A stretch of DNA of 16,174 nucleotides from Campylobacterales bacterium. Lineage in GTDB: Bacteria > Campylobacterota > Campylobacteria > Campylobacterales > Nitratiruptoraceae. Under the pieces are notes generated by a model. The model made no database searches. It saw only the letters and a program-made list of their open reading frames with translations, and was not told the DNA's origin. Within the stretch, counting starts at the first letter, position 1. Each line of letters begins with the position of its first letter. Shown here in pieces: positions 1-16,174 of this stretch. The DNA lies in NCBI GenBank assembly GCA_027068245.1, contig JAMOUF010000034.1, positions 1 to 16,174 on the forward strand. Direction: 5' to 3'. Position numbers and translations under genes: made by a program.

Positions 1-228
1 ATCATCCGGATTGAATAAAATCTCTTTAATCTTTTGGGGATTGATGATTGTGTAGCAACCCTTTTGATAAAATTCAAACTTCACTCCAAGCCTTTTTTCA
101 AGGTCTTTTTTATACCGTTGGACCGTTTTTGTGCTTACATCCAGCAGATAGCTGAGTTCGTTTATGCAAAACTTGCCGTTTTTTGCCAAAAAATCCAAAA
201 AATCCAAAAATTTATCCGTTTTAGACAT
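1..228 (-). CDS. Helix-turn-helix transcriptional regulator, N-terminal part (WYL/DeoR-type), runs off the window
   Basis: An open frame of 76 codons begins at an ATG at 226-228 and stays open to base 1, so only the N-terminus is present. Seen: an amphipathic start (MSKTDKFLDFLDFLAKNGKF), then a helix-turn-helix with the pattern INELSYLLDVSTKTVQRYKKDLE at residues 22-44, then a wing-like stretch ending GCYTI near residue 62. The 'VS-x-x-T-hQR' recognition helix followed by a strand with G-x-Y is the usual opening of DeoR-like and WYL-domain regulators. The WYL ligand-sensing domain, if present, would lie outside the window. The purine-rich AAAGAGAG upstream is a usable ribosome site. The gene lies 82 bp downstream of the CARF-nuclease gene on the same strand. 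WYL regulators are often found beside CRISPR-Cas and other defence genes, so control of that locus is a reasonable inference, but not shown. The start of the gene contains a 9-bp in-frame repeat. Confidence 0.72.
   Translation of the reverse strand, partial: MSKTDKFLDFLDFLAKNGKFCINELSYLLDVSTKTVQRYKKDLEKRLGVKFEFYQKGCYTIINPQKIKEILFNPDD
190..207. repeat. Short 9-bp tandem repeat inside the HTH gene
   Basis: On the plus strand the unit AAAAAATCC occurs at least twice in a row, with a partial further copy. On the coding strand it encodes repeated Leu-Asp-Phe. The unit length is a multiple of three, so copy-number change would lengthen or shorten the N-terminal helix without a frameshift. Confidence 0.5.
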
Positions 229-259
229 TTTTTTCTCTCTTTAAATTTATCTTTTTGAG

Positions 260-265
260 ATTATC
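260..265 (-). promoter_or_regulatory. Possible -10 box for the HTH regulator gene
   Basis: The minus strand reads TGTGATAATCT here. GATAAT is one base from TATAAT and is preceded by an extended-10-like TG. It lies about 32 bases upstream of the ATG. No good -35 hexamer is visible, which is common in Campylobacterota promoters. It would allow the regulator to be transcribed separately from the CARF gene. Confidence 0.35.
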
Positions 266-310
266 ACATATTTTTTTATTTTTGCGTCTGTTTCTGTCTT
301 TTTGAATATT

Positions 311-1558
311 TTACAACTCCAGTTTTGTAAGTTTGTCTATTTTGAAATTTGTCAGAAGCTGCTGATAGTTTTTTGGGCCAAGGATATTTTCCTCAAGCCT
401 TATTGGCAGGTTCAGATAGTAAAACTCAGGTTCGATACCGTAAGATTTTATATCTCTTTTGAATTTTTTCAGATTTTTGTAATCCGCGTTTTTCGTATCG
501 AACTCAAGGCCGTAAAAAATCACCACATATTTGGAGAGTCTCTTTTTATATCTTCTTATCGCATTAAGCTGTTTTTTGAAAAACTGCCCTTTCAAAGGGG
601 CGAGTTTATAAAAATAACTTAATGGTTTCACCTCTATCCACAAATATTCATCTTTGTTTTCCAGCATTATGTCTATATCGCTGATTTTCTTACCATTAGA
701 GGAGATGATATCTTTTCCCCTCTCTACCCTCTCATAAGTGAAATTCAAAAAGTTTTTGTTCTTTTTGTTCCAGAAATACTCAAACAGAATGTATTCCATA
801 AAATATCCCAAAATCGAGCGGTTAAGCATCTTCTTTTCTACGGCGTATTTGGCGATTTTGCCTAATGGTGTGAGAGTATTGTCTTTTAAAAGCCCCTCTT
901 TTTCCAGGTAGCTATTTATTTTGGGATTGCCAAACCCGTTTTGGAAGGCCAGATATGGATACAAAAGTTCCAAAAGGCCCCTGTCGAACTCCACCGGTAG
1001 AGGTTTTATCCTAATGAGGCGGTTATCTTCTCCTTCAAAGTCATATACAATCTCACAGTCGAAAATCTGGGCTATGGTGGAGAAATATGGTATTACGCCT
1101 TTATATCCGCCGGTTATATTGAAACTGATTTGGCTTTTGTCATCTTTTATTATCTCAAACAGCAAATCCAGAAGATTGGATATGCCGGACTGGAAAATTT
1201 GGGAGTTTTTCATAGAGAGGTTTTTCGCCACCTTTATAGAGGTTTTTTTGGCGTTGTCCGGAAATCTCTTTTTGAAAAATCTTTCCAACACTCTCCCTAC
1301 AAGATAAGTGGAAAGGGAGTCCGAGGCTAAAAAAAAGAGCTCGTAATCTCCTTTTTTCAGCATTTGGCACAAAGTGGCGCTCTCCGCACTCTTTTCGCAG
1401 TTATCGAACCAGTTGGATATTTCCTTTTCCAACTTTATCAGCTCATCTTTGTAATCTTCTTTATCCGAATAGGGCAGATTCAAAAAAACCGGCCATTGCC
1501 GGGGTCCGAAATAGTGTCTTAGAAGCGATGTGCCAAGTGTCGTGATAACTTTATCCAT
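311..1558 (-). CDS. CARF-domain / PD-(D/E)XK nuclease, CRISPR-associated (APE2256-type CARF; Card1/Can2-like layout)
   Basis: A 415-residue protein predicted to be a nuclease switched on by cyclic oligoadenylate from a type III CRISPR system. Domains in order: an N-terminal CARF fold, with the opening strand and loop ITTLGTSLL at residues 5-13 and the second ligand-pocket motif NITGGYKGVIPY at 147-158, both typical of the APE2256/Csm6 CARF group; a winged-helix-like segment around 205-245 (EKEGLLKDNTLTPLGK); then a C-terminal restriction-endonuclease fold with E255 or E260, D294/D296 in SDIDIML and E309-V-K311 in WIEVK, giving the D-x12-ExK signature of PD-(D/E)XK enzymes. No HEPN R-x4-6-H motif was found, so a Csm6-type RNase is unlikely. 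The start is set at ATG 1558 because GGAAGGCGGAG precedes it and the conserved CARF strand follows at once. An in-frame ATG at 1648 lacks a ribosome site and would overlap promoter elements. No cas genes or array are visible nearby. It could instead be a ring nuclease-like regulator. Confidence 0.82.
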   Translation of the reverse strand: MDKVITTLGTSLLRHYFGPRQWPVFLNLPYSDKEDYKDELIKLEKEISNWFDNCEKSAESATLCQMLKKGDYELFFLASDSLSTYLVGRVLERFFKKRFPDNAKKTSIKVAKNLSMKNSQIFQSGISNLLDLLFEIIKDDKSQISFNITGGYKGVIPYFSTIAQIFDCEIVYDFEGEDNRLIRIKPLPVEFDRGLLELLYPYLAFQNGFGNPKINSYLEKEGLLKDNTLTPLGKIAKYAVEKKMLNRSILGYFMEYILFEYFWNKKNKNFLNFTYERVERGKDIISSNGKKISDIDIMLENKDEYLWIEVKPLSYFYKLAPLKGQFFKKQLNAIRRYKKRLSKYVVIFYGLEFDTKNADYKNLKKFKRDIKSYGIEPEFYYLNLPIRLEENILGPKNYQQLLTNFKIDKLTKLEL

Positions 1559-1582
1559 ACTCCGCCTTCCCGGTTTTTCATA

Positions 1583-1588
1583 ATTATA
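1583..1588 (-). promoter_or_regulatory. -10 box of the CARF-nuclease promoter
   Basis: The minus strand reads TTTACATATAATTATG, with a perfect TATAAT at 1588-1583, about 25 bases upstream of the chosen ATG at 1558. The predicted RNA would have a leader of under 20 bases carrying the GGCGGAG ribosome site. No clear -35 is seen. The match supports the downstream start choice. Confidence 0.55.
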
Positions 1589-1636
1589 TGTAAATAGTTT
1601 TAATTTTGCTTTACGCCCTCTTATGCGGGTTGATGG

Positions 1637-1642
1637 TATAAT
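1637..1642 (+). promoter_or_regulatory. -10 box of the DUF389 gene promoter
   Basis: A perfect TATAAT lies 22 bases upstream of the ATG at 1665. TTACGC about 20 bases further upstream is only a weak -35. It faces away from the promoter of the CARF gene in the same 106-bp spacer, so the two genes are divergently transcribed and could share control. Confidence 0.5.
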
Positions 1643-1664
1643 TGGCATTTAAAAAGGCTTTTGT

Positions 1665-3461
1665 ATGTTATATCTTTTGTATGACAGCGATCTGATAACC
1701 CCTCAAAGCCTTAAAAGCTATGCCCTGCTTATACGCCAAAAGTTTGGCAAAGTTCCGATAAAAAAGGAGTTTAGAAAAAACTTCACCGATTTTGAGGATG
1801 AGGCGATTATATTTATCTACGCCAAAGAGAGTGATATCAAAAGGTGGATAGAGGCTGCGAGGCAGAAGAAATTCACCATATTTTTCATTCCAAACGACAA
1901 ATCGAAAAATCTGCAAAAAATTTTTAAAATCCCCTCCTCATTTGAAAAATATCTAAATGAACACACTTTCGTCTCCCACCTGACTTTCTTTAACGACACT
2001 CTTATTTTAAATAGAGCCGTCATAGCCAAAGAGAGCTGGATAGAGAGCCAAAACCTTTTAAAATCATTTATGAAAAACATCTTCAACATCAAACTTTTCA
2101 AACTCAACATATCAGTCAACGACAAACAGATAAAGAGCGCGGCTTTGATGATAGAGGCCTCGAACGAATATGTATTCAAAGTAATGGGATATCCTTTTTT
2201 CCAGGACACCGGCAGCTGTGACCGTTCGGCTGTCATCGTGTATGCGCCCACCTCTATCATAGAGGCTTTTAAACTGAAGTTTCATCTGATGAAAAAACCC
2301 GTCTTGCCAAAGGGAGTGGGCGTAATAAAAAGCAAAACGGTTACATTGCAAAGCGAGGATGAACTGAGCGTTGTTTTGGACGGGGAGAAGTTTCCATTTG
2401 AAAAAAGAGCGGTTATTAAGACCCAAAACACAAACCTTCATATAGCATCCGGATGGGAGGGGTGCCAGCCAAGCCAAAAGGACTCCATCCGGATAGATAC
2501 CCTGCCAAAAGACGAGGAGCTGATAGAGTTCTATACCAAAAAGAGCCTGCCGCTGCTGCCAATAGCCAGCGAGGAACAGTTTGCCGCGCTTTTTAAAAAG
2601 ATAAGAGAAAACGCCAAAATCAACCCCGTCTATATGACGCTGCTTATAATAAGCGTGCTTATGGCAACCATCGGGCTTTTTCAAAACTCCGCCCCAACCA
2701 TAATAGGCGCTATGATTTTGGCTCCTTTGATGGCTCCGATAATCTCCTTTTCCATGGGAGTTGTCAGGTTTGAGAAATCTCTTATGGCACGGAGCCTCAA
2801 AACCATATCCGTATCGGTATTTACGGGCCTTTCTTTATCGACCATGTTCGCCTTTTTGCTCCCATACAGACACGTAACCGAGCAGATGGCTTTGAGGATG
2901 AATCCCACGCTTTTGGATCTGGCGGTGGCTATTTTGGCGGGTATCGCCGGCGGATACGGATACGCCAACTCTAAAGTGGGCGAATCCTTGGCAGGAGTAG
3001 CTATTGCCGTGGCACTGGTGCCGCCTCTGTGCGTTGCTGGAATCGGGCTTGGATGGATGGATATGGATATGTTCTGGCAGGCTTTTTTGCTGTTTTTCGC
3101 CAACATCGTAGGTATCGCATTTGCCGCCGGGACGGTATTTTATCTTTTAGGATTCGCCTCCAGCCGCTATGTGGCCGCGGCTTTCATACTTAAGATATCT
3201 ATGATACTCGTAATAATCTTTCCACTTTATATCTCAACCCAAAACTTCTTTTTATATGAGAGGATTTACGATGAGATAAGCCGGGTTAAATACCATCAGG
3301 TGGAGCTTAAAATCGATTCGGTATATACAAAAGAGGGGAAAATCTATGTAGAGATAGAGCTTGCGGCAAAGGATGAGGCCGCAGCCCGGAAGGCCGCGCA
3401 AACTTTGAAAAAGAGATTTCCGGATCTGAATTTCGTCGTAATTTATAAAAAAATAGTCTAA
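1665..3461 (+). CDS. DUF389 (TIGR00341-type) membrane protein fused to a degenerate lipid-kinase-like N-terminal domain
   Basis: 598 residues; the molecular function of the family is not established. The membrane half (about 318-525) carries the DUF389 hallmarks: NSAPTIIGAMILAPLMAPI at 341-359 and GVAIAVALVPPLCVAGI at 444-460, with roughly five to six hydrophobic segments. A small soluble C-terminal domain (about 535-598) follows. The N-terminal 265 residues resemble a diacylglycerol/sphingosine kinase (YegS-type) fold. IFFIPNDKSKNLQKIFKIP at 72-90 lines up with the family's 'IIPLGTGNDFARxLGIP' segment, and VVLDGE at 236-241 matches the C-terminal beta-sandwich. Where the catalytic GGDGT loop should be, the sequence reads IYAKES (51-56), so kinase activity is not expected. 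This alignment was done by eye. The ATG at 1665 has only a weak AAAAAGG ribosome site. It is the only plus-strand gene and is convergent with purL, with 8 bp between them. Confidence 0.8.
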   Translation: MLYLLYDSDLITPQSLKSYALLIRQKFGKVPIKKEFRKNFTDFEDEAIIFIYAKESDIKRWIEAARQKKFTIFFIPNDKSKNLQKIFKIPSSFEKYLNEHTFVSHLTFFNDTLILNRAVIAKESWIESQNLLKSFMKNIFNIKLFKLNISVNDKQIKSAALMIEASNEYVFKVMGYPFFQDTGSCDRSAVIVYAPTSIIEAFKLKFHLMKKPVLPKGVGVIKSKTVTLQSEDELSVVLDGEKFPFEKRAVIKTQNTNLHIASGWEGCQPSQKDSIRIDTLPKDEELIEFYTKKSLPLLPIASEEQFAALFKKIRENAKINPVYMTLLIISVLMATIGLFQNSAPTIIGAMILAPLMAPIISFSMGVVRFEKSLMARSLKTISVSVFTGLSLSTMFAFLLPYRHVTEQMALRMNPTLLDLAVAILAGIAGGYGYANSKVGESLAGVAIAVALVPPLCVAGIGLGWMDMDMFWQAFLLFFANIVGIAFAAGTVFYLLGFASSRYVAAAFILKISMILVIIFPLYISTQNFFLYERIYDEISRVKYHQVELKIDSVYTKEGKIYVEIELAAKDEAAARKAAQTLKKRFPDLNFVVIYKKIV

Positions 3462-3485
3462 AGAGAGGGTCAGATATCCCTCTCT
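3462..3485 (-). terminator. Intrinsic terminator of purL, enclosing its stop codon
   Basis: A perfect 8-bp inverted repeat, AGAGAGGG / CCCTCTCT, surrounds an 8-base loop. On the minus strand it is followed by TTTAGACTATTTTTTT, so it reads as a terminator for purL rather than for the convergent DUF389 gene, since the plus strand has no T-run after it. The purL TGA (3470-3472) lies in the loop and the 5' arm lies in the last codons. Confidence 0.6.
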
Positions 3486-5677
3486 ATCTCCTCTTTGAAC
3501 CTGTTGAAATATATACTTTTAAGCTTTTCAATATCCATATCTATATCGCAGAGTTTAAACTCCTTTCCGCCAACGGTGCCAAGCGGAACTACATGGATGC
3601 CTATCTCGTTTGCCAGCTCCTCCAAAGCGTGCATATTTTTTGGCTCTATCTCCACCAGCGCGCGGCTGAAGGTTTCGCTGAAAATCTCTCTGCTGTCTTC
3701 AAAACAGAAATTTCCCAAAAACCCTTTGCCAGAAACCGCCGCCATCTTTGCCAAAGCCATGGCTATACCGCCGCTTCCCACATCTTTGGCCGCTTTTAAA
3801 AGCCCTCTTTTGTTCGCCTCTATGACGAACTTCCAAAGTTTTAGCTCCTTTTCGTAGTCGATTTTGGGAAGCTCTCCGGCAACTTTGCCAAAAAGCTCTT
3901 TTAAGTAAAGACTTCCCCCAAACTCTTTTTGGGTATCGCCTACGATATAGACTATATCTTCCTCATCCTGAAAGACGCTTGGCAAAACTTTGTTCTCATC
4001 CTCGTTCACTCCCACCATGGCGATGGTTGGCGTGGGATAGACGCTTACGCCGTTGGTCTCGTTGTATAGGCTCACGTTTCCGCTAACCACAGGAGTGTTT
4101 AGGGCCTTACAGGCCTCTTTGATGCCTTCGGTGCCCTGGGCGAACTGCCACATAACCTCGGGATTTTCCGGATTGCCGTAGTTTAGGCAGTCCGTTATCG
4201 CAAGCGGCTGGGCCCCACTCATTGCCACGTTTCTGCCTGCGGCCATCACGGCCGCCGCCGCTCCGCCTTTTGGGTCGATGTAGCAGTATCTTGGGTTGCA
4301 CTTGCTGCTCATAGCCAAAGCCTTTTTGTTCTCTTTTACCCGTATGACGCTCGCATCCAGCGTTCCTGGATGTTTTACGGTGTTTGTCTGCACCATCGAG
4401 TCGTACTGCTCGTAAACCCAGGCCTTGTCCGCCACCTCCAGGCTTTTTAGAAGTTTCTCGAAAGCCTCCTGGTTATCCACATGGGGAACCGTGTCGATGG
4501 AGGTCTCTTTTATGTAGTCCAGATACTCGGGCCTTTTGGTTGGCCTGTCAAGCTCCGGGGCCTCTTCGCTTACGGGAGCCACCGGGATGTCGGCTACCTT
4601 CTGGCCATGCCAAAAAAGCTCCATCCGGCCCGTATCGGTAACCTCGCCTATAACAGCAGCGTCCAAATCCCATTTTCTAAATATCTCCATCAGTTTCTCT
4701 TCCGTTCCCTTTTTGGCGCATATAAGCATCCTCTCCTGGGATTCGCTAAGCATCAACTCATATGGGGTCATCCCCTCCTCTCTCATGGGAACCTTGTCAA
4801 GATACATCCTCATACCGCTTCCGGCCCGTCCTGCCATCTCGAAACTGCTGGATGTAAGGCCAGCTGCCCCCATATCCTGTATGCCTACCACATAGTCGGT
4901 CTTAAAAAGCTCCATACAGGCTTCAAGCAGCAGTTTTTCGGTAAAAGGGTCACCAACCTGCACCGTGGGCCTTAGGCTTTTGGATTCCTCCGTAAAGCTG
5001 TCGCTGCTCATCACCGCTCCGCCAAGGCCATCACGGCCCGTTTTGCTTCCCACATAGATAACAGGGTTTCCAACTCCCTCGGCCCTTCCGTAAAAAATCT
5101 CGTCCTTTTTACAAATCCCGAGGCTAAAAGCGTTTACCAGGATGTTTCCGTTGTAGCACTCCTCAAAGCTCATCTCGCCGCCAATGGTAGGAACCCCCAC
5201 GCAGTTGCCATATCCGCCAATTCCTGCAACCACGCCTCTTACCAGGTATCTTTGGTGAGCCCCCACTTCATCATCTCTTTTTACATCCCCAAATCTAAGG
5301 GCGTTAAGGTTGGCTACGGGCCTTGCGCCCATGGTAAAGACGTCTCTTAATATTCCGCCAACACCCGTGGCGGCTCCCTGGTATGGCTCTATGAAGCTTG
5401 GGTGGTTGTGGCTCTCCATCTTGAAAACAGCGGCCATCCCCTCCCCTATGTCTATGACGCCGGCGTTCTCTCCCGGGCCCTGGATAACCCAGGGAGCTTC
5501 TGTGGGAAAACCTTTTAGGTATTTTTTGCTCGATTTGTAGCTGCAGTGCTCGCTCCACATGGCGCTGAATATCCCTATCTCCACCAGGTTGGGCTCTCTT
5601 CCCAAAATCTTTTTTATATGTTCGTAATCTTCCATCGTCAGTTTATGGGCTTTTAAAATCTCCTGTAAATTCTCCAT
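3470..5677 (-). CDS. purL: Phosphoribosylformylglycinamidine synthase subunit PurL
   Basis: 735 residues, the length of the small PurL that works with separate PurS and PurQ. It converts FGAR to FGAM with ATP and ammonia channelled from PurQ, the fourth step of purine synthesis, in the cytosol. Seen: [19 protein letters not shown] at 36-54 with the conserved His44; [25 protein letters not shown] at about 88-112, the core AIRS-type ATP-binding signature; a second AIRS-like half containing [10 protein letters not shown]; and the glycine-rich [15 protein letters not shown] near the end. There is no glutaminase domain, as expected. The ATG at 5677 has AAAGG eight bases upstream. It is the last gene of a minus-strand run, 49 bp after the transporter gene; neither purS nor purQ is adjacent. 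Base composition is visibly richer in G+C than at the left end of the window. Confidence 0.97.
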
Positions 5678-5701
5678 AACAAGCCTTTATATTTTTTTAA
5701 T

Positions 5702-5707
5702 ATTGTA
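5702..5707 (-). promoter_or_regulatory. Possible -10 box for purL
   Basis: The minus strand reads CTATACAATATT in the 49-bp gap upstream of purL. TACAAT is one base from TATAAT and would give a leader of roughly 18 bases containing the AAAGG ribosome site. No -35 is evident. purL may equally be read from the upstream genes. Confidence 0.3.
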
Positions 5708-5726
5708 TAGAAAAAAAGATAAAAGT

Positions 5727-6788
5727 TTAATAGTAATATGCAGCTACTCCAACAAAGAGAGCCAGGAAGTTCAAAAGAAGAAATTTCGCCAAAAAACGGC
5801 CCCTATCCCCAAATTTACCGGTATAGAGCCTGTAGGCTATCAAAGAGGCCAAAGAGCCCCAAAGCAGACCGTATCCGCCCACATTTACGCCCCACAAAAG
5901 GGCTTTCCACTCCTGGGTAAACTCTGCCAGCAAAAGTGTGGCCGGAACGTTACTCATAAGCTGGCTTAAAAGCAGGGAGAGAAAGAAGATGTGATGGGGA
6001 TGGTTTAGAACCTGTGAAAAAATCGTTGAGAGGTTGTCGGCTATACCAAAAAAGAGTAAAAAGATTAAAAGAAGCATATAGTCTATCTTTAAAGCCTCCC
6101 TGTTTAGCAGCAAAGAGTAGAAAAAAACCACAAAAGCGGTATAAAGAGGGACAATTTTTATAATCGTCATCACAATCAAAATAAAAAAGAAGAGATATGG
6201 ATAAACCTCTCTTTTTTTTATATGGACGCTAAGGGTTCTTTTTTCATAAACTTTAAAAGGTATTATAGTTGCCGCCGTCATAACAAAAACGAACATAGCC
6301 GCCACGAATGGGGCCATCGTTTTTATAAATTCCAAAAATGACAGGTTGTAGTGCCAGTAGATATAGAGGTTTTGGGGAGAGCCAAAAGGGAAAAGCTCGG
6401 CTCCATTGGCGGTAATAGCCTCCAAAATCACCAGCAGGTCCTTGTTCTTTATATTCAATGCCAGCGTCAATGGCACGACGGTGACGAGCGCAACGTCGTT
6501 TGTAATGAAAGAGGAGATAAAAAAGGTAAGTAGAATCAGTTTGATATGCAAAAACGAGCCCCGCTCCATTTTTGCGGCCAGATATGTTAAAAACCCGCTG
6601 TTCTCAAGGCCTTTGATGGTTATGAAAAACATAGTTAGAATAAAGAGCACCTCCATCTCGTCTTTGGAGATTTGAGGAACCCTTTTTAGATATATCGATG
6701 TGGCAAAAAATATTATAAGGGATAAAAAAAAGAGCCACTCATTATATAAAAACTCCTTAGCTTTGAAGGCATACTTTTTTATATCCAT
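5727..6788 (-). CDS. ArsB/NhaD/SLC13 superfamily ion transporter
   Basis: A 353-residue inner-membrane protein with about ten hydrophobic segments, slightly shorter than most members (about 400-450). Two repeats typical of the ion-transporter superfamily are visible. In the first half, SSFITNDVALVTVVPLTLAL at 92-111 and NGAELFPFGSPQNLYIY at 128-144 match the 'TNDV...P' and 'GS-PQN' substrate-binding hairpins. In the second half, SQLMSNVPATLLL at 275-287 is the matching 'SN-P' motif, followed by GVNVGGYG. These motifs are shared by arsenite pumps, Na+/H+ antiporters of the NhaD type and dicarboxylate/sulfate carriers, so the substrate cannot be read from the sequence. No ars genes are nearby. 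Its ATG lies 15 bp after the small membrane protein gene, with a weak GGATAG ribosome site, so translational coupling is likely. Confidence 0.85.
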   Translation of the reverse strand: MDIKKYAFKAKEFLYNEWLFFLSLIIFFATSIYLKRVPQISKDEMEVLFILTMFFITIKGLENSGFLTYLAAKMERGSFLHIKLILLTFFISSFITNDVALVTVVPLTLALNIKNKDLLVILEAITANGAELFPFGSPQNLYIYWHYNLSFLEFIKTMAPFVAAMFVFVMTAATIIPFKVYEKRTLSVHIKKREVYPYLFFFILIVMTIIKIVPLYTAFVVFFYSLLLNREALKIDYMLLLIFLLFFGIADNLSTIFSQVLNHPHHIFFLSLLLSQLMSNVPATLLLAEFTQEWKALLWGVNVGGYGLLWGSLASLIAYRLYTGKFGDRGRFLAKFLLLNFLALFVGVAAYYY

Positions 6789-6803
6789 AATCTATCCGGA
6801 TAA

Positions 6804-7202
6804 TCAGGAGTTCCACTTTTTTCTAAGCTCTTTTTGCTTTTGAAGATACCTTTTTATCAGCTCATCTTTATCAAAACCGAGTTTTTTCAGACTCTCTTCC
6901 AGGTCCAGGTTCGCCGCTTTCAGGGCCCTTTTAGCGAGCTCTTTGTTTTCGAGTATAAGTGAAGGTTCGATGCCTGTTTTGTAAAGATAGCCAAACATCT
7001 TTTTCAACTCCTCTTCGCTAAAACCCCTGTTATGCATATGGCTTTTAAAAATCTTGTAACGCTCCTTTTTTTTGGTATAAGCAAGATATATAAACCCGGC
7101 TGCTACTGTAAGTATCAGTAGAGCCAGAAAGAGGCTCCCGAAAAATATATTTTGTTCAAAACCGCTTTGGGTGTTGAACCTGAAGTTTTTTAACAGATCC
7201 AT
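6804..7202 (-). CDS. Small membrane-anchored protein of unknown function (resembles the N-terminal part of PilZ-type membrane proteins)
   Basis: 132 residues, not recognised as a named family. A short extracytoplasmic N-terminus is followed by one membrane helix (about 18-42), a KKKER stop-transfer and a charged, helical cytosolic part of about 90 residues. The pattern GFSEEELKKMFGYLYKTGIEPSLILENK (60-87) and the helix ending KKLGFDKDEL (106-115) resemble, from memory, the linker that precedes the PilZ domain in membrane PilZ proteins of Campylobacterota. Here the chain stops before any PilZ barrel, so c-di-GMP binding is not predicted. The start is ATG 7202 with TAGGA seven bases upstream. 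It lies 23 bp downstream of htpX and 15 bp upstream of the transporter gene, so it is probably co-transcribed with both. A partner role for HtpX is possible but is only suggested by position. Confidence 0.72.
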   Translation of the reverse strand: MDLLKNFRFNTQSGFEQNIFFGSLFLALLILTVAAGFIYLAYTKKKERYKIFKSHMHNRGFSEEELKKMFGYLYKTGIEPSLILENKELAKRALKAANLDLEESLKKLGFDKDELIKRYLQKQKELRKKWNS

Positions 7203-7225
7203 TTTTTTCCTATCCGGGCCGACAT

Positions 7226-8104
7226 TTAGATTCTATATCCAAGTTTGATCGCCACCTCTTTGATATGTTGAAGCCTCTTTTCTATAGGCGGATGGGAGGA
7301 GAAAAGATCGAGCAGGCCCACGATACCAAATGCCTTCATCTCAGGAGGAAGGGCAACCTTCTCCTTTGGCAGCTGCCCAAGTTTCGCCAGGGCGTAGTAT
7401 ATGCCATGGGGCCCATCAAGCCTTACTGCACCCTCATCGGCTTTATACTCCCTGTATCTGCTAAACCACATGGCAAGCATGGTGGCAAACAGCGTCAAAA
7501 CTATTTCCAAAATAAAGCTTATAGCCATATAGGCCATCGGCGAGGGGTTGCCCTCCTCGTCTTTTGGCGCCAAAATATTTGCCAAAAGCCTCGAGAAGAA
7601 AAAGACGAAAGTGTTCAATACACCCTGCAGCAGCGTCATCGTAATCATATCGCCATGTTTTATGTGGCTTATCTCGTGGGCCAAAACCCCCTCTATCTCC
7701 TTTGGCTCCATCAGATCAAACAGCGAATAAGAAACTGCAACCAAAGCGTCGTTTCTGTTCCATCCCGTGGCAAAAGCGTTTGGCGGGCCGTTGAAAAGCC
7801 CAACTTCGGGCATGCCTATGCCAGCCTCGTTGGCAAGTTTTTCCACCGTTGAAACCAGCCAGGCCTCCATATCGTTCGAGGGATTTTCGATTACCTGGAC
7901 CCCCATATGCATCTTCGCCATCCATTTGGATAGAAAGAGGCTGATAATCGCACCGCTAAATCCAACTATAAATGACAGCACCAAAAGCCCGCTGACGGTG
8001 GACTGGTCTATCCGGATACCAAAAAATGCTTCCAGGATAAAAATGGTAAGATATATCGAGGCCATTACGGCCAGGTTCATCAAGATAAACAGTATTATTC
8101 CCAT
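7226..8104 (-). CDS. htpX: Membrane zinc metalloprotease HtpX (M48)
   Basis: 292 residues. An inner-membrane endopeptidase with its active site in the cytosol, which degrades misfolded membrane proteins together with FtsH in organisms where it has been studied. Seen: two N-terminal membrane helices (about 4-26 and 36-58), the zinc motif HEISH at 143-147, two further hydrophobic segments (about 155-175 and 190-212), then SRYREYKADEGA at 215-226, where E219 is the expected third zinc ligand. PNAFATGW at 108-115 is also family-typical. The start is taken as ATG 8104, with AAGGAG five bases upstream; an in-frame TTG directly before it is too close to that ribosome site. It lies 26 bp downstream of the aspartoacylase gene. 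All catalytic residues are intact. Confidence 0.95.
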   Translation of the reverse strand: MGIILFILMNLAVMASIYLTIFILEAFFGIRIDQSTVSGLLVLSFIVGFSGAIISLFLSKWMAKMHMGVQVIENPSNDMEAWLVSTVEKLANEAGIGMPEVGLFNGPPNAFATGWNRNDALVAVSYSLFDLMEPKEIEGVLAHEISHIKHGDMITMTLLQGVLNTFVFFFSRLLANILAPKDEEGNPSPMAYMAISFILEIVLTLFATMLAMWFSRYREYKADEGAVRLDGPHGIYYALAKLGQLPKEKVALPPEMKAFGIVGLLDLFSSHPPIEKRLQHIKEVAIKLGYRI

Positions 8105-8130
8105 CAAGACTCCTTTTTAAGAACTTTTTA

Positions 8131-8946
8131 TTATATTTTAGCCTTTTTTGTCAAGCAAAATGCTATATCTTTCTCATAATATGCCGCCTCGTTTATAAAT
8201 ACAGCGAACCCCTCATCTCCTTCATGAAAAATCTCCTTTTCATCAAAGGTTATAAACACCGGATCTCCTTTGTGAAGGTAGCTATAATCTTTAAACGCAA
8301 GTTCTGGATGGATCATCCCCTCAAGCTCCTGCCCTTTTCTTGGGAAACCGACTGTTTCGAATATATCGTAACACTCGACGCTTTCCTCGCACTTTTCGCC
8401 AAGTTCGAGTATCCTAAGAGCCGCTAATAAAACTTTTTTTGTCCTAAAAAAAAGATCCGCATCAAGCACTCCCTGGGGAACGGGCCCTACTTCTATGGTG
8501 ATGGAGGATGGAGTGATGGAGTTTATAAAATCCCCCTCGCTGTTGCCAAACCATCTTAGAATCCTCACATCATCATACTCAAGGGCCAAAATTTTAGCTA
8601 CGCTGTTTGAGAGTGGATCATCCTGGCTCAAAACTATAGTGATCCCCATATTTGCCGTAGTCGTATGCAGATCGATCAAAAAATCCGTCTCTTTGAGCCT
8701 CTCTTTTATAACCTTGGCCCGTTCATATTCATAAATATGACTATCCTTTTCCAAAGACTCTTTGCCAAAAGATCGGTTCAGGTCAAAATCTATATATCTT
8801 CTGCACTCCTTTATAGCCTTTGGGTTTGCCAAAAGAAAGTCCACATCTATATTTTCAAACTTCAACGGCTCATTTTGCACCGTTTTTACCAGATAGATAC
8901 CAAGGAGTTCATTACCATGCACCCCACCGCTTACAGTAACCCTCAC
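8131..8946 (-). CDS. Aspartoacylase-family zinc hydrolase (AspA/AstE, M14-like)
   Basis: 271 residues. The family removes the acyl group from N-acyl amino acids such as N-acetylaspartate. Seen: GGVHGNE at 7-13 gives zinc ligands H10 and E13; FDLNRSF at 54-60; DLHTTTANMG at 92-101 supplies H94, the third ligand; and IEVGPVPQG at 151-159 holds the catalytic glutamate E152. The 'DLHxTTxNMG' and 'GPxPQG' wording is closer to aspartoacylase than to succinylglutamate desuccinylase, but the true substrate is not shown. The start codon is GTG at 8946, preceded by AAAAAGGAG four bases upstream; no ATG is available nearby and the frame begins directly with the first conserved strand. It is the first gene after the metE terminator, with a TATAAT about 20 bases upstream, so it probably begins the transcript through htpX to purL. 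No arginine-degradation (ast) genes are in the window. Confidence 0.87.
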   Translation of the reverse strand: MRVTVSGGVHGNELLGIYLVKTVQNEPLKFENIDVDFLLANPKAIKECRRYIDFDLNRSFGKESLEKDSHIYEYERAKVIKERLKETDFLIDLHTTTANMGITIVLSQDDPLSNSVAKILALEYDDVRILRWFGNSEGDFINSITPSSITIEVGPVPQGVLDADLFFRTKKVLLAALRILELGEKCEESVECYDIFETVGFPRKGQELEGMIHPELAFKDYSYLHKGDPVFITFDEKEIFHEGDEGFAVFINEAAYYEKDIAFCLTKKAKI

Positions 8947-8964
8947 AGCACTCCTTTTTGATCT

Positions 8965-8970
8965 ATTATA
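8965..8970 (-). promoter_or_regulatory. -10 box for the aspartoacylase-htpX-purL gene run
   Basis: TATAAT on the minus strand (in TTTTTGTTATAATAG) lies directly after the T-run of the metE terminator and about 18 bases before the GTG start. The -35 region would fall inside the terminator stem and has no good match, so the call rests on the -10 alone. Confidence 0.4.
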
Positions 8971-8996
8971 ACAAAAAGCCGCAGAATGTGCGGCTT
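8971..8996 (-). terminator. Rho-independent terminator of metE
   Basis: The minus strand reads AAGCCGCA, loop CATTC, TGCGGCTT, then TTTGTT: a perfect 8-bp GC-rich stem followed by a T-run. The 5' arm begins within the metE stop codon (8995-8997), so termination is immediate and isolates metE from the aspartoacylase gene run. Confidence 0.85.
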
Positions 8997-11253
8997 AAAG
9001 TTTTACCATTCTGCTCCTTACATCCTTTGTGGCCTCGACCATATTTTTCAAAGCCGGTATCACCTCCTCCCACTTTCTGGTCTTAAGTCCGCAGTCCGGA
9101 TTGATCCAGAGTTTATCGGCAGGAAACACGGCAAGTCTTTTTTCTATCTCTTTTAAAATCTCCTCTTTTGAAGGGACTCTTGGAGAGTGTATATCGTAAA
9201 CTCCCACACCCACCTCTTTTTGGTAGTTGTATTTTTTGAAAGCCTCCAATATCCTATTTCCGTTTCTGGCGGTCTCTATCGATATAACGTCGGCGTCCAT
9301 GGCGTCTATAGTTTCCATTATATCGTTGAAGTCGCTGTAACACATATGGGTATGGATCTGGGTTTGAGGCCTTGCCGTGGCGGTGGAGATTTTGAAACTC
9401 TCAACGGCTACCCTCTCATATTCGCCTCTTTTTGCCTTTCTAAGCGGATAGCCCTCTTTAAAAGCCGCCTCATCCACCTGAATTATTTTAATTCCGGCAT
9501 CTTGCAAATCACTTACCTCGTCGGCAATTGCCAAAGCCATCTGCTTGTAAACCTCCTCTTTATCCAGATCATCTCTAACAAAGCTCCAGTTAAGCATAGT
9601 AACGGGGCCAGTCAGCATCCCTTTTACTATCTTTTTGGTTTTGCTTTGGGCATAGGTGATCCACTCCACGGTCATAGACTCAGGTCTGCTTACGTCTCCG
9701 AAGATGATTGGTGGTTTTACGCACCTGCTTCCATAGCTTTGAACCCAGCCGTTTTCGCTAAATGTCACGCCCTTTAGCATCTGAGAGAAATACTCAACCA
9801 TATCGTTTCTCTCAAACTCTCCGTGGACGAAGATATCCAGACCTACCTCTTCTTGAACCTCTATCGCGTAATCGATGAATTCGCGTATCTTTCTTTTATA
9901 TTCCTCCACGGATATAAGCCCCTCTTTATAGGCTTTTCTCGTTTTTCTTACCTCCTTTGTCTGTGGAAAACTGCCAATAGTGGTTGTAGGCAAAACGGGG
10001 TATTTCAGTATTTCGTGCTGAATCTTGAGCCTCCGTGTTGCCGGCATCTCTCTTGCTTTTAGGTTTTTAGGAAGGTTTTTCACTCTCTTTTGCACAGCCT
10101 GGTTGTGTATCTGGGTGGAGTTTTTTCTGCTTTCGTTGGCCCTTTTGTTCTTTTCGTAAAGCTCTTTATCGCTCTCGTTGAGCGGGGCGTTTGTGTAAAG
10201 CCTCTCTATGATTCTCAGCTCATCGAGTTTCTCGTTTGCAAAAGCGAGCCAGCTTTTGATGTTTTTATCCATCTTTTCCTCATATTTGAGCGTATATGGC
10301 ACATGGAGCAAAGAGCAGCTTGTAGAGACGATGACCTGCTCTTTATCAATCGGCAAAGAGTTTAAAAACTCCACTTTTTTATCTATATCGCTTATCCAGA
10401 TATTTCTGCCATCCACTACTCCGGCGATAAGCTTTTTGCCGCTTTTTGCAATCTTTTCGACACTCTCAACATTTTCCATCCCGTAGACAAAATCAAGCCC
10501 GATACCGGATATTTCCGTATCCACCAGTATATCTACCGCCTCGTTCGCCCTCTCAAAATATGTAACCACATAAATCTCTACACCTTCGGTTGGGATATTT
10601 GCGTAAGCCTTTTTAAGTGCTTCAAGCTGTTCGTTCGATACGTCCTTAACCAGTGCCGGCTCATCAAATTGAATATACTTTACTCCGGCTCTTTTTAGCT
10701 CTTCCACAAGCTCTTTATAAACCGGAACTATTTTGTCGATGAGCTTTAGGGGATCGATATCTTCGCTTCTTGCAAAGGATAAAAAAGTAACGGGGCCTAT
10801 GAGATTTACCTTCGTATCAATGCCAATCTCTTTTGCCTCTGTAAACTCTTTTAAAATTTTTTCCACATTTGGCTTGAAACTCTGATCTTTTTTTAGATAT
10901 GGCACAAAATAGTGGTAGTTTGTATTGAGCCATTTTGTCATAGGGAGTGCTTTGTGGTTTTTATCCCCTCTGGCCATTGCGAAATATCGCTCAACCCCTT
11001 CAAGGTCCCTGTACTCTTCCGGCTCGCAGCCGAGAGTAACTATCATATCTATCATCTGATCGTATAGACTAAAGTCGTTCGAGCTGATAAATTTGGCTTT
11101 GGCCTCTTTTTGGTAGAGCCAGTGCCTTTTTCTAAGCTCTTTTGCCACATTTTCCACTTCATCAAAACTACTCTCGCCCCTCCAAAATCTCTCCAGGGCA
11201 AACTTCAACTCTCTTTTTTCACCCACTCTTGGGTATCCGGTAACATACGGCAT
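8995..11253 (-). CDS. metE: Cobalamin-independent methionine synthase MetE
   Basis: 752 residues, full length for the family. Transfers a methyl group from 5-methyltetrahydropteroyl-triglutamate to homocysteine, the last step of methionine synthesis, without B12. Seen: the N-terminal barrel opening GYPRVGEKRELKFALERFW (6-24), a long charged linker near 365-400, then the catalytic C-terminal barrel starting LPTTTIGSFPQT (421-432). Expected zinc ligands are all present: H636 and C638 in THMCYSDF, E660 in ISIE, and C721 in INPDCGLKTR. The ATG at 11253 has AGGAGAG a few bases upstream. It is followed at once by a terminator. A TTGACA/AATAAT-like pair just upstream suggests its own promoter. No cobalamin riboswitch core was recognised in the 320-bp leader. 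Confidence 0.97.
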   Translation of the reverse strand: MPYVTGYPRVGEKRELKFALERFWRGESSFDEVENVAKELRKRHWLYQKEAKAKFISSNDFSLYDQMIDMIVTLGCEPEEYRDLEGVERYFAMARGDKNHKALPMTKWLNTNYHYFVPYLKKDQSFKPNVEKILKEFTEAKEIGIDTKVNLIGPVTFLSFARSEDIDPLKLIDKIVPVYKELVEELKRAGVKYIQFDEPALVKDVSNEQLEALKKAYANIPTEGVEIYVVTYFERANEAVDILVDTEISGIGLDFVYGMENVESVEKIAKSGKKLIAGVVDGRNIWISDIDKKVEFLNSLPIDKEQVIVSTSCSLLHVPYTLKYEEKMDKNIKSWLAFANEKLDELRIIERLYTNAPLNESDKELYEKNKRANESRKNSTQIHNQAVQKRVKNLPKNLKAREMPATRRLKIQHEILKYPVLPTTTIGSFPQTKEVRKTRKAYKEGLISVEEYKRKIREFIDYAIEVQEEVGLDIFVHGEFERNDMVEYFSQMLKGVTFSENGWVQSYGSRCVKPPIIFGDVSRPESMTVEWITYAQSKTKKIVKGMLTGPVTMLNWSFVRDDLDKEEVYKQMALAIADEVSDLQDAGIKIIQVDEAAFKEGYPLRKAKRGEYERVAVESFKISTATARPQTQIHTHMCYSDFNDIMETIDAMDADVISIETARNGNRILEAFKKYNYQKEVGVGVYDIHSPRVPSKEEILKEIEKRLAVFPADKLWINPDCGLKTRKWEEVIPALKNMVEATKDVRSRMVKL

Positions 11254-11278
11254 AACGCTCTCCTATGGTTTTGTTTTT

Positions 11279-11289
11279 ATTATTGTCAA
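11279..11289 (-). promoter_or_regulatory. Possible metE promoter elements
   Basis: The minus strand reads AACTTGACAATAATAAAAAC. TTGACA (11289-11284) matches a -35 and the overlapping AATAAT (11284-11279) a -10, so both cannot serve together. If AATAAT is the -10, the leader is about 20 bases and includes AGGAGAG. If TTGACA is the -35, the -10 would fall on the ribosome site. Confidence 0.3.
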
Positions 11290-11302
11290 GTTGTTTTGGA
11301 GG

Positions 11303-11584
11303 TTAATGGGGAGGCGCTATACCGCTTTTTGTTTTTCTACATCTACAAAGGGGGGCTTTTTTTATCTTTGCAAGTTTTAGTATCTTATGTGCCAAACATG
11401 CGAAGAATATGTTGCAGTAGCAGGGTTTGGGGCTATCCTGTGGTGGTGACTCCTCAGGTTCGATCTTTTGTGGTATGAAGTATTGGAAAATTCTATGTTT
11501 CGCTTTTTCAAGTTTTACAAGCGATACGGTAGCGGTAATTGCCTGCAGTGAAAAATACCTGCCTTTAAAACCTTTAGCCACCAT
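11303..11584 (-). CDS. Possible small Cys-containing protein filling the yqgF-metE gap
   Basis: A 93-codon open frame, not recognised as any family. It starts at ATG 11584, overlapping the last codons of yqgF by 11 bases, and ends 49 bp before metE, so it occupies nearly the whole gap. Seen: a basic N-terminus (MVAKGFKGRYFSLQ), a central acidic and proline-rich stretch (about 37-54), then five cysteines, C55, C57 and C63 in CYCNIFFAC and C80/C82 in CRC, in a Lys/Arg-rich tail. The paired CxC motifs could bind metal or form disulfides. Codon use looks like that of its neighbours (AAA, GAA, ATA, GCG). The nearest ribosome-like purines (GAGAGG) are 13 bases upstream, longer than ideal. Against it: no homologue known to me, and the region could instead be an untranslated leader of metE. 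Overlap with yqgF mirrors the mnmE-yqgF overlap. Confidence 0.42.
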   Translation of the reverse strand: MVAKGFKGRYFSLQAITATVSLVKLEKAKHRIFQYFIPQKIEPEESPPQDSPKPCYCNIFFACLAHKILKLAKIKKAPLCRCRKTKSGIAPPH

Positions 11585-11978
11585 TTTTTAAAAGCCACCT
11601 CTCAAGGATCTTCTGAGCGGCTATACTGTCGAGCCTGCCGTCTTTTTTATGTTTTAAAACCCCCTTTGTGGCCTCTTTTGCCTCATAGGAGGTAAAACCC
11701 TCGTCCATAAACTCGATCTCTCCGTCAAAATCGAGCAAAGAGACGAAGTGCTCTATCCGTTTTCTCATCTCCTCATGGCTGCTTCCCCCCTCAGGCACGC
11801 CCACTACCAGCGTATCTACCCCCCACTCTTTCAAAAAACCGTCAAGTTCCGCAGCGGCCTGGTTTCTGTTCTTTCTAAAGATAGGATTTTGCGGGATGGC
11901 GATAGTGCCGTCTGGAGATATGGCGAGGCCTATTCTTTTTAGCCCGATATCGGCTGCGGCTATTTTTTTATTTGCCAA
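11574..11978 (-). CDS. yqgF: YqgF/RuvX family RNase H-fold nuclease (pre-16S rRNA processing)
   Basis: 134 residues, the normal family length. YqgF/RuvX proteins have an RNase H fold; the E. coli member is linked to 16S rRNA 5'-end maturation. Seen: AAADIGLKRIGLAIS at 7-21 with catalytic D10, LVVGVPEGG at 57-65, FMDEGFTSYEA at 90-100 and the last catalytic D117 in DSIAAQKILE. In most members the third block reads D-E-R; here it is D-E-G (92-94). The open frame extends upstream inside mnmE, but those codons give non-family sequence. The start is set at TTG 11978, with GGGGAG seven bases before it, because the conserved beta strand begins right after. This overlaps the mnmE stop by 11 bases and suggests coupled translation. 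Confidence 0.9.
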   Translation of the reverse strand: MANKKIAAADIGLKRIGLAISPDGTIAIPQNPIFRKNRNQAAAELDGFLKEWGVDTLVVGVPEGGSSHEEMRKRIEHFVSLLDFDGEIEFMDEGFTSYEAKEATKGVLKHKKDGRLDSIAAQKILERWLLKNGG

Positions 11979-13314
11979 GGCAGAACTCCCCAAACATCTT
12001 ATCCAAAAGCTCGCCGCTTTGCATCGGCCTTGTAATGGAGCCGATCTCCTTGATGGCCTCGTTGAGGTGAAAGGCGAATATCTCAAGTTCCTCCATCTCA
12101 AGCGGACCAACACTCTCCTCTATCGCTTTTGAAGCCCTTTTTACCGCCTCTATCTGTCTATTTGATATGAGGATAATCTCTTCGGTATTGGAGAAGCTGT
12201 CAAGAAGATTTTTCAATCTCTCAACAAGAGGGCTGATATCTTTTTTTACGCTTAAACTTATCGTCTCAAATCCTGCGATATCTGTGATTTTTCTATCAAG
12301 GTCTATCTTGTTTAAAACGGCTATAATCTCTTTTTTGTCTTTGTATCTGTTTAAAAGCTCTATAATTTTCCTGTCTTCCTCATCCAAAGGTTTGCTGGCG
12401 TCGAACATGGCTATAACTATATCGCTCTCTTCTATAGCGTTTATGCTTCTGTCTATTCCTATCTTCTCTATCTCGTCTTTCGCCTCTCTGATGCCCGCAG
12501 TATCTATGAACCTTACTAGATGTGTTCCTATTTTGATGCTCTCTTCTATGGTGTCTCTGGTAGTTCCGGCTATATCGCTGACGATCGCCCTCTCATAATT
12601 TAACAAAGCGTTCAGCAAAGAGCTTTTGCCGGCGTTTGGTTTGCCTATGATGCTAATTTTGAAACCTTCTATCAGCCCGGCTCTTCTTATGGAGCTTTCC
12701 ACAACTTTTTGCAGCTCTTTTTTTATATCCATAAGCTGCTCTTTTATCTGGTTGTGAAGATCTATTGGCAGATCCTCTTCGGCGTAGTCGATGTTTACCT
12801 CCACAAAAGCGAGTATTCTTATGAGTTTTTCGCGGATATCTTCCACGAAACTCTTTAGCTCGCCTTTAAGCTGCCTTGCCAAAATCTTTGCGGCGTCTTC
12901 ACTTTTTGCCTCTATCAGCTTCGCTATGGCCTCGGCCTCGGTAAGGTCTAGCTTTTCGTTCAAAAAGGCCCGTTTGCTAAACTCCCCTGGCTCTGCCAGT
13001 CTTGCTCCAAGCTCTGTAAGGGTTTGTAAAATCCGGTTTGCCACAACGATCCCGCCGTGCACCTGAAACTCCACAATATCTTCGCCCGTAAAGGATTTTG
13101 GGGCTTTGAAGTAGATGACAATTCCCTGATCTATCAGTTTTTGCTCGGTATCGTAGATAGAGCTGAGCGTGGCTGTTCTTGGGGCAAAGTGGCGGCCCGT
13201 CATCTTTTTTGCCAGCTCCAAAGCCCTGGGGCCGCTCACTCTTACTATGGCTATGGAGCCTACACCGTGGGCGGTGGCGACGGCGGCGATGGTGTCAGTT
13301 GTTTCTGAAGTCAT
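11968..13314 (-). CDS. mnmE: tRNA uridine-5-carboxymethylaminomethyl modification GTPase MnmE
   Basis: 448 residues. With MnmG it installs the (carboxymethyl)aminomethyl group on wobble U34 of certain tRNAs; it is a cytosolic dimer. Seen: the tetrahydrofolate-binding N-terminal domain starting DTIAAVATAHGVGSIAIVRVSG; a helical domain holding a GTPase with Walker A GKPNAGKSS at 224-232, the G2 loop AGTTRDT, DTAG at 271-274 and NKID at 335-338; and the C-terminal FCLGK, with the conserved cysteine at 445 and GK end. The start is uncertain. ATG 13314 lies five residues before the conserved opening but has its GGAG about 16 bases upstream. An in-frame TTG at 13338 has AAAGAGA nearer and would add eight residues. 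Either start overlaps the end of jag (20 or 44 bases), so translational coupling is likely. yqgF overlaps its 3' end. Confidence 0.97.
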   Translation of the reverse strand: MTSETTDTIAAVATAHGVGSIAIVRVSGPRALELAKKMTGRHFAPRTATLSSIYDTEQKLIDQGIVIYFKAPKSFTGEDIVEFQVHGGIVVANRILQTLTELGARLAEPGEFSKRAFLNEKLDLTEAEAIAKLIEAKSEDAAKILARQLKGELKSFVEDIREKLIRILAFVEVNIDYAEEDLPIDLHNQIKEQLMDIKKELQKVVESSIRRAGLIEGFKISIIGKPNAGKSSLLNALLNYERAIVSDIAGTTRDTIEESIKIGTHLVRFIDTAGIREAKDEIEKIGIDRSINAIEESDIVIAMFDASKPLDEEDRKIIELLNRYKDKKEIIAVLNKIDLDRKITDIAGFETISLSVKKDISPLVERLKNLLDSFSNTEEIILISNRQIEAVKRASKAIEESVGPLEMEELEIFAFHLNEAIKEIGSITRPMQSGELLDKMFGEFCLGK

Positions 13315-14020
13315 TGACGAGTATGTATTTTTCTCCAAATCTGTTCTCTTTTATTGCTACATATTTGTTTGGGAAAACCTCCCTAAGCTCTTTTAAAGCG
13401 ATCTGAACCAGCACGCCGTCAAGCGGTTTCGTCTGGCCCCTGCCCTCTTTTTTCACCTTTTCGATAAATGGTTTGAGGTAGTTTTTTACCGACTCCTCCT
13501 GGGTTTTAAGAAACTGCGCTATCTCCAGCCTGATCTGCACTCCGTACTTTGAGTTCAGCCAATTAAAAAGCATATATGAAAGAGCTTTGTATCTGTATCC
13601 CTCCTTGCCTATAAGCAAGGCTGCGTCCTTGCCGTCGAACTCTATCAACAGAGTATTCTCGCCGTAAGGCTTTACCTCTATTTTATCCAGTTCGTAGCAA
13701 AGCTCCAAAAAGAGCCTTTTTATCTCATACTCCACATCTTTGGCAATCTGTTCAAGATCGCTTTTCTCCTTGTAGAAGTTGTCGAAAATCTCGCTCTTTT
13801 CCTCTTTGCTCTTGATTTTTGGAGCCGCTTTTTGCTCTTTTTTCTCATCAGTTTTGCAAGATACGAGTATGATGGCGTTTTTTTTGCCTATACCCAAAAT
13901 ACCTTTTGAAGGCGGCTGCAAAACTTTTATATCAAGTTCGGTTACGGAGCAGTTGAGTTCTGAAGAGGCTTTGTTGTAGGCCTCCTCAAGAGTAGGTGCT
14001 TCGATCTTTATCTGTTTCAT
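13295..14020 (-). CDS. jag: Jag/KhpB RNA-binding protein
   Basis: 241 residues. Seen: the Jag_N domain at about 1-52 (IEAPTLEEAYNKASSELN ... PSKGILGIGKK), a charged Lys/Glu-rich linker (55-90), then a type II KH domain (about 100-172) with the RNA-contacting IGKEG loop at 137-141 and YKALSYMLFNWLN. After it, where KhpB proteins normally carry an R3H domain, the chain VLVQIALKELREVFPNKYVAIKENR (203-227) lacks the R-x3-H pair, so R3H is degenerate or absent. KhpB partners with KhpA and binds many transcripts in Gram-positives; its role here is not established. The ATG at 14020 is three bases after the yidC stop, and its 3' end overlaps mnmE. The yidC-jag-mnmE order is widely conserved. Confidence 0.93.
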   Translation of the reverse strand: MKQIKIEAPTLEEAYNKASSELNCSVTELDIKVLQPPSKGILGIGKKNAIILVSCKTDEKKEQKAAPKIKSKEEKSEIFDNFYKEKSDLEQIAKDVEYEIKRLFLELCYELDKIEVKPYGENTLLIEFDGKDAALLIGKEGYRYKALSYMLFNWLNSKYGVQIRLEIAQFLKTQEESVKNYLKPFIEKVKKEGRGQTKPLDGVLVQIALKELREVFPNKYVAIKENRFGEKYILVNDFRNN

Positions 14021-14023
14021 AAC

Positions 14024-15607: not shown

Positions 15608-15616
15608 TCAAACCCT

Positions 15617-15925
15617 TTACAGTTTTTTTATAAGATAGTAAAAATTTTTACCCTTTGGCACAAGCCAGTATCTGATATCGCATTTTTTAAAATCGGCTTT
15701 TTTGATATTTTTATATATTACCGGATAGTCTATCCCGCCGGCAAAAAGCTGGTTGCATCTAAGAACCCTCAGAAGGGTCGCTATAAAAGCTACAAAGAGG
15801 TTGTCTTTTTCCAGTCTCCATTTTGCATATTCGGAACAGGTTGGGTAGTATCTGCAGCTGCCAAACGAAAGAAGTGTGAAAAACTTCTGATAGAGTTTTA
15901 GAAATAAAAGCAGAATTTTTCTCAT
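15617..15925 (-). CDS. yidD: Membrane protein insertion efficiency factor YidD
   Basis: 102 residues, slightly longer than many YidD proteins (about 70-90) because of a basic tail. A small amphipathic inner-membrane-associated protein that helps YidC-dependent insertion. Seen: an N-terminal helix RKILLLFLKLYQKFF, then the family signature SCRYYPTCSEYA with C24 and C30, and the later RVLRCNQLFAGGIDYPV with C57. Its ATG overlaps the rnpA stop as ATGA (15925-15922), so translation is probably coupled. yidC follows after 9 bp. Confidence 0.96.
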   Translation of the reverse strand: MRKILLLFLKLYQKFFTLLSFGSCRYYPTCSEYAKWRLEKDNLFVAFIATLLRVLRCNQLFAGGIDYPVIYKNIKKADFKKCDIRYWLVPKGKNFYYLIKKL

Positions 15926-16174
15926 ATCACCCTGGCTTTTTTTAAAGTCTGAAAAAAGATCTTTTCCACTTTCACAAATTCCGCCTCCAAAATAGCCGGT
16001 TTGGCTACAAAGATATAGTATCCGGTTTTCAACTCCATAATATATGGAATTACAAGGGCTTTAAGCAATCTTTTCGCCCTGTTCCTTTTAACCGCTTTGC
16101 CAACCTTTTTACTGGCTACAAAGCCCACCCTCTTTTGAGGCCCCTCTTTATAAAAAAGGACGAAAAAGGGAGTA
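15922..16174 (-). CDS. rnpA: Ribonuclease P protein component RnpA (5' end outside window)
   Basis: 83 residues of the C-terminal part are present; the frame remains open to the window edge, so the start is missing. It is the protein subunit of RNase P, which trims the 5' leader of pre-tRNAs. Seen: TPFFVLFYKEGPQKRVGFVASKKVGKAVKRNRAKRLLKAL in pieces, that is the FxVLFY strand, then GFVASKKVGKAV and the RNR signature KRNRAKRLL. A GTG at 16126-16128 lies inside the conserved core and is not a start. rpmH would be expected just upstream, beyond the edge. The stop overlaps yidD by four bases. Confidence 0.95.
   Translation of the reverse strand, partial: TPFFVLFYKEGPQKRVGFVASKKVGKAVKRNRAKRLLKALVIPYIMELKTGYYIFVAKPAILEAEFVKVEKIFFQTLKKARVI

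Follow-up and report, generated by a model that had tools for sequence, protein, structure and literature searches.

A CARF7 protein with a C-terminal PD-(D/E)XK domain from a Campylobacterales bacterium is most likely a nuclease switched on by type III CRISPR signalling

The stretch analysed here, 16,174 nucleotides of contig JAMOUF010000034.1 (positions 1 to 16,174; assembly GCA_027068245.1) from a Campylobacterales bacterium of the Nitratiruptoraceae, is hereafter called the window, and the gene in question lies close to its first base. It encodes a protein of 415 residues consisting of a CARF sensor domain of the CARF7 kind, a winged-helix-like linker and a PD-(D/E)XK nuclease domain (Table 1), and most likely represents a nuclease that is switched on by the alarm molecule of type III CRISPR systems and cuts DNA/RNA. 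We regard the protein as an ancillary effector of such a system, activated by cyclic oligoadenylate (cOA), with its gene most likely forming the near end of a type III locus that was otherwise left unassembled, and give this reading a probability of about three in four.

Domain composition of the CARF7 protein

The motifs TLGTSLL and NITGGYKG, reported in the initial annotation with no strand named, are present on the minus strand, while frame 1 of the plus strand over positions 311-1558 is interrupted by stops. The open reading frame (ORF) list gives the frame as 311..1648 and thus includes an in-frame ATG at 1648 that would add 30 residues; the likely start codon is at position 1558, yielding 415 residues, since in all 22 other aligned relatives the sequence begins no earlier than MDKVITT.

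The sensor was assigned by Pfam to Cas_APE2256 (PF09651, 66.1 bits with a cut-off of 24.8), with the NCBIfam model TIGR02619, which belongs to the same group, scoring 17.9, under its cut-off of 37.45. The Card1-type CARF family PF23400 gave 12.6 bits, below its cut-off of 24.6, so the domain is not of the Card1 type, as had been stated initially. It had also been described as being of the APE2256/Csm6 kind, of which the APE2256 part stands and the Csm6 part proves loose, the domain being a CARF7 nearest to Cami1 and SSO1393/Sis0811. Csm6 as the identity of the protein was rejected because the sensor is CARF7 and no HEPN family is among the Pfam matches; the Csm6 HEPN family PF09659 had no match anywhere, control genomes included, which makes that particular search uninformative.

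In the AlphaFold2 model (mean predicted local distance difference test score 87.3), residues 1-243 find Cami1 and the ring nucleases Sis0811/SSO1393 as their structural matches in the PDB, and the match to these CARF-wHTH ring nucleases extends to about residue 243, supporting the winged-helix-like linker noted before. When the C-terminal part was modelled on its own, its structural matches were SfsA, Can2, Card1 and restriction enzymes, and the predicted domain has both the PD-(D/E)XK core fold and the catalytic E/D-ExK set, with the D-x12-ExK motif found at D296-x12-E309-x-K311, exactly as placed in the initial annotation. Profile search and structure prediction, which had been suggested there as checks, recovered both the APE2256 CARF and the nuclease core. 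At the sequence level, only the CARF part has relatives in the PDB, chance-level matches aside.

Relatives in type III-B operons

An alignment-based scan of named genomes confirmed 24 of 49 pattern matches, corresponding to 23 loci as L011 and L012 are the same in sequence; scans of genome contigs with a single sequence (0 of 42 pattern matches confirmed) and of viral contigs (0 of 18) gave none. Seven distinct loci with the nuclease form, assigned by motif and length, were placed in seven phyla, one of them archaeal: Campylobacteraceae (L006), Thermotoga (L007), Hydrogenothermaceae (L011), the archaeon Candidatus Harpocratesius (L014), Caldisericales (L015), Saprospiraceae (L016) and Desulfofervidaceae (L022). 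All seven genes reside inside type III-B operons, immediately 3' of cmr3 in every case and immediately 5' of cmr4 in six, the gene order of L015 being cmr4-5-6-1-2-3-CARF. Operon neighbours were identified in phmmer searches with the proteins of L006, whose own names come from NCBIfam, with Cmr1-Cmr6 all above cut-off. The palm motif of Cmr2 (Cas10) is intact in all seven loci (GGDD in six, GGED in L006). No HD domain was detected in the ten Cas10 proteins scanned, seven of which come from nuclease-form loci, although a divergent HD could escape; the Csm1 protein of a type III-A locus from a genus-mate (L073, see below), in contrast, did score one. Other members of the family (L008-L010, L013, L017-L021 and L023) likewise have cmr genes around them, with weak cmr neighbours at L026 and L027 and none at L024, L025, L028 and L029.

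The distribution of the nuclease form is patchy: among 398 genomes of the order to which the window belongs, 21 have some match, and the only full-length one is in the window's own genome. Some candidates from this order-wide search match in the C-terminal part only and were rejected as relatives, namely L041, which is SfsA by Pfam, L042 and L047, which resemble SfsA by eye, and L044, which by eye looks ATPase-like with a nuclease-like end. A CARF7-like gene broken by a stop codon occurs at L039:1033-2133 (genome G079), and in order-mates (L034, L035 and L036) CARF7-like genes adjoin csm-looking genes and have a short end domain with DGNDSRRxxCN, by eye perhaps another RelE-like effector. In the Desulfonauticus genome that contains L023, a further weak match to Cmr1 lies some 5 kb past the Cmr operon (L023:18594-19817).

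Conservation of the two putative active sites

Across 23 database relatives, one of which (P0022) carries a different C-terminus, residues D296, E309, K311 and Q325 show conservation of at least 90%. In 14 deliberately diverse members, S11, K153, E255, D296, E309 and K311 are invariant (14/14) and Q325 is not. S11 follows strand 1 and K153 follows strand 4 of the Rossmann core, and the two stand opposite S12 and K169 of Sis0811, the mutants of which are represented by PDB entries 7pq6 and 7pqa. Judging from the titles of these entries, we take S12 and K169 to be the ring-nuclease residues of Sis0811.

For a broader sample, the 7996 candidates sharing most words were scored in a profile search, which yielded 125 proteins; drawing on the best 120 of the 125, the alignment has 126 rows (the 14 diverse members plus 112 others, including a few near-duplicates). 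The D296-E309-K311 pattern is found in 70 rows. All 70 have glutamate at position 255, though the filter used only the other three residues, and all have K153, with S11 present in 69 and the exception, P0004, being without its start. RelE identity is established for only some of the remaining 56 rows: seven of them resemble near variants of the nuclease form, and the three placed non-nuclease members (L008, L013 and L023) match RelE profiles almost to their ends.

Exchange of effector domains on the CARF tree

The tree covers the CARF region of 125 rows, the duplicate L011 having been dropped. The window protein sits in a clade of 21 members, all nuclease-type (support 100/99). When the near variants are assigned to the nuclease form, and P0081 (truncated) and P0120 (on a long branch) are excluded from the count as doubtful, the labels "nuclease" and "other" change six times on the tree, at least three changes being forced by well-supported branches, and none of 500 label shuffles gave a number as low as six. 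Counting the seven near variants and the two doubtful rows apart inflates the result to 12 changes (7 forced). As the nuclease and other forms interleave, the sequences indicate that the effector domains behind CARF7 have been exchanged more than once. Three changes may also represent one gain and two losses, and single placements are unsure owing to long branches.

Genomic position of the gene

The window starts at contig base 1, and the contig ends 310 bases beyond the CARF gene, within a helix-turn-helix (HTH) gene that went unmentioned in the initial annotation (Table 1). The remaining fragment gives weak Pfam HTH matches, all below their cut-offs, and matches a WYL- and WCX-containing protein of 323 residues (L073:4934-5902; phmmer E-value 4.3e-12 in a small ORF set), which is encoded, together with csm1, cas1 and a CARF7 gene, in a type III-A locus of a genus-mate. 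This locus (L073:1-19501, genome G015) comprises, by Pfam, csm1 with an HD domain, cas1 and the CARF7 gene, as well as the WYL-WCX regulator, a Csx1-like CARF protein slightly below the Pfam cut-off and, by eye, likely cas6, cas2 and further csm genes.

Table 1 Features of the window around the putative CARF7 nuclease gene
Feature	Position	Strand	Remarks
HTH gene fragment, N-terminal 76 residues, cut by the contig end	1..228	-	Starts 82 bases after the CARF gene, same strand
CARF7 - winged-helix-like - PD-(D/E)XK protein, 415 residues	311..1558	-	ATG at 1558, stop codon 313-311
Residues 244-415, PD-(D/E)XK nuclease domain	314..829	-	E255, D296, E309, K311, Q325; conservation and model fold
Residues 190-243, winged-helix-like linker with LTPLGK	830..991	-	Model secondary structure; structural match to Sis0811/SSO1393 runs through it
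Residues 1-189, APE2256/CARF7 sensor	992..1558	-	S11/K153 align with S12/K169 of Sis0811
DUF389 membrane protein, divergent neighbour of the CARF gene	1665..3461	+	Adjoins purL in most genus-mates fetched

In five of the six genus-mates fetched, the place of the CARF gene beside the DUF389 gene is occupied by a phosphofructokinase gene (Pfam). In genus-mate G011 there is an insertion between the DUF389 gene and purL (L069:13661-17145), the first ORF of which codes for a KAP-family P-loop protein according to Pfam, so foreign genes appear to be acquired on either side of the DUF389 gene in this genus.

No cas genes were seen by eye among the ORFs of the window and no array-like repeats were found in its first 4000 bases, which the scan covered, in agreement with the initial annotation. 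In the whole assembly (371 contigs, 98.58% complete), there was no match to Csm1, Cmr2 (cas10), cas1 or RAMP proteins; four ORFs matching the Cas10 palm were rejected, two being GGDEF proteins by Pfam and two GGDEF-like by eye. Nor was a WYL domain found in the assembly, where a miss is possible as the WYL of the genus-mate itself scores barely above the cut-off (22.6 vs 21.8), or a phosphofructokinase, in a search run without a positive control. Since the HTH gene is cut by the contig end and neither the WYL domain nor the phosphofructokinase was found, a stretch is probably missing from the assembly exactly beside the CARF gene, which makes the absence of cas genes weak evidence.

Alternative readings

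It had been proposed at the outset that the gene is either at the edge of a type III locus or an orphan. Of the two, the edge seems the likelier, as the contig breaks off within a regulator gene and neighbouring genes are missing from the assembly. According to the orphan reading, the type III module has been lost and the CARF nuclease and a WYL-type regulator have been kept, either as a remnant or to sense cOA from some other source, for instance a plasmid-borne Cas10 or a cyclase of the cyclic oligonucleotide-based antiphage signalling (CBASS) type. The absence of cas10, cas1 and RAMP matches from an assembly rated so complete agrees with this reading, as do the housekeeping genes directly upstream of the CARF gene. 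We nevertheless consider it rather doubtful, given that the contig stops inside the very next gene, that no WYL domain was found (with the possible miss mentioned above), that the phosphofructokinase flanking DUF389 in five of six relatives was not found either (in the search without a positive control), and that both sites have retained their residues, for which a decaying remnant would have no need.

Two other readings concern the protein itself. The best PADLOC match is CARF_RelE (E-value 3.9e-42, residues 1-293), followed by CARF7--CARF_RelE (1.7e-36, 124.4 bits), which spans residues 1-369, and taken at face value these labels would make the protein a translation blocker of the Cami1 type. 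That is hardly credible, as fold and residues alike identify the C-terminal domain as PD-(D/E)XK, and as the RelE-type members L008, L013 and L023 score far higher with the second profile (426.7, 435.8 and 375.7 bits, respectively) and match it almost to its end. It is also improbable, if less so, that the nuclease-like domain is catalytically dead or merely binds nucleic acid, the protein then acting as a ring nuclease or a regulator: invariance of E255, D296, E309 and K311 over 14 members of several phyla would be unexpected for a pure binding domain, and rows selected by the other three residues alone have E255 without exception.

Proposed mechanism

The fold, the residues and the operon context of relatives were computed, while the steps of the mechanism are what we infer. 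Cas10 would sense target RNA and make cOA, most likely cyclic tetra-adenylate (cA4), which, by analogy with Cami1 and the ring nucleases, would bind in the pocket between the two CARF7 domains of a dimer. The winged-helix linker would relay the change and join the two C-terminal PD-(D/E)XK domains as an active pair, which, as in Can2/Card1, may cut DNA, RNA or both with a divalent metal. Given that S11 and K153, which correspond to the Sis0811 ring-nuclease residues, are kept, the CARF7 sensor may also degrade its own activator and thereby limit the attack. As a tentative extension, CARF7 could be seen as an interchangeable socket in the slot after cmr3 that was fitted more than once with either RelE or PD-(D/E)XK, the nuclease form being a self-timed DNA/RNA cutter, by way of a ring-nuclease activity that is reported to be lacking in Can2/Card1, and supplying the attack where Cas10 has no recognisable HD domain.

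Novelty and significance

Fusions of CARF with restriction endonuclease domains in general have been noted since at least 2014 (PMC4012209). In the parts of the literature covered by our search, PD-(D/E)xK is associated with Crf4 or CARF4 (PMC12669027; PMC12825302), and CARF7 is named with RelE (PMC9676260) and with Crn1 (PMC12409355); no description of CARF7 with PD-(D/E)XK was found in that coverage, outside of which the 2020 CARF classification falls. The PADLOC CARF7 names seen include RelE, DUF2103, HD and CYTH_HD, with PDDEXK absent from them. The pairing is thus probably undescribed as such, though the CARF-nuclease kind is known. Of the suggestion that the protein is a hybrid or under-described effector, the second part fits the literature searched, but the protein is no one-off in view of the 70 of 126 rows and the seven type III-B relatives.

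In all ten nuclease-type relatives tried, CARF_RelE or CARF7--CARF_RelE was the best PADLOC match, so automatic annotation would label the nuclease forms as RelE effectors and hide the nuclease. Likely cOA-activated nucleases would extend past the CARF4 branch, with the exchange of sensor and effector domains seen within one operon slot.

Comparison with known systems

The PDB chains of SSO1393/Sis0811 (CARF-wHTH) have 268-275 residues and end after the winged helix, without an effector nuclease. SfsA is a structural match to the nuclease domain of the window protein, and L041 shows SfsA domains only; SfsA is not known to have a CARF domain. Cami1 (CARF-RelE; PDB 8phb, 8phj) shares the CARF7 sensor and is among the nearest solved relatives, but its C-terminus is RelE, whereas the PD-(D/E)XK domain of the window protein would target nucleic acid itself and not mRNA in the ribosome; the mechanism of Cami1 is used here as given in the PDB titles and in PMC11229360.

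Can2/Card1/Cdn1 (CARF4) likewise have PD-(D/E)XK after CARF. Their sensor, however, is of the CARF4/Card1 type, while that of the window protein is CARF7 (PF23400 under its cut-off, CARF_RelE and CARF7 as the best PADLOC families), and whole chains of Can2/Card1 align with the window protein over both domains only at a root-mean-square deviation of 20-22 and hence differ in domain arrangement. Can2 is the nearest functional model, being described as cA4-activated, metal-dependent and cutting DNA and RNA (PMC7969007), and being listed without ring-nuclease activity (PMC9704534). If the CARF domain of the window protein does cut its own activator, the protein would be a compact self-limiting switchable nuclease, directly comparable with Can2 and Cami1.
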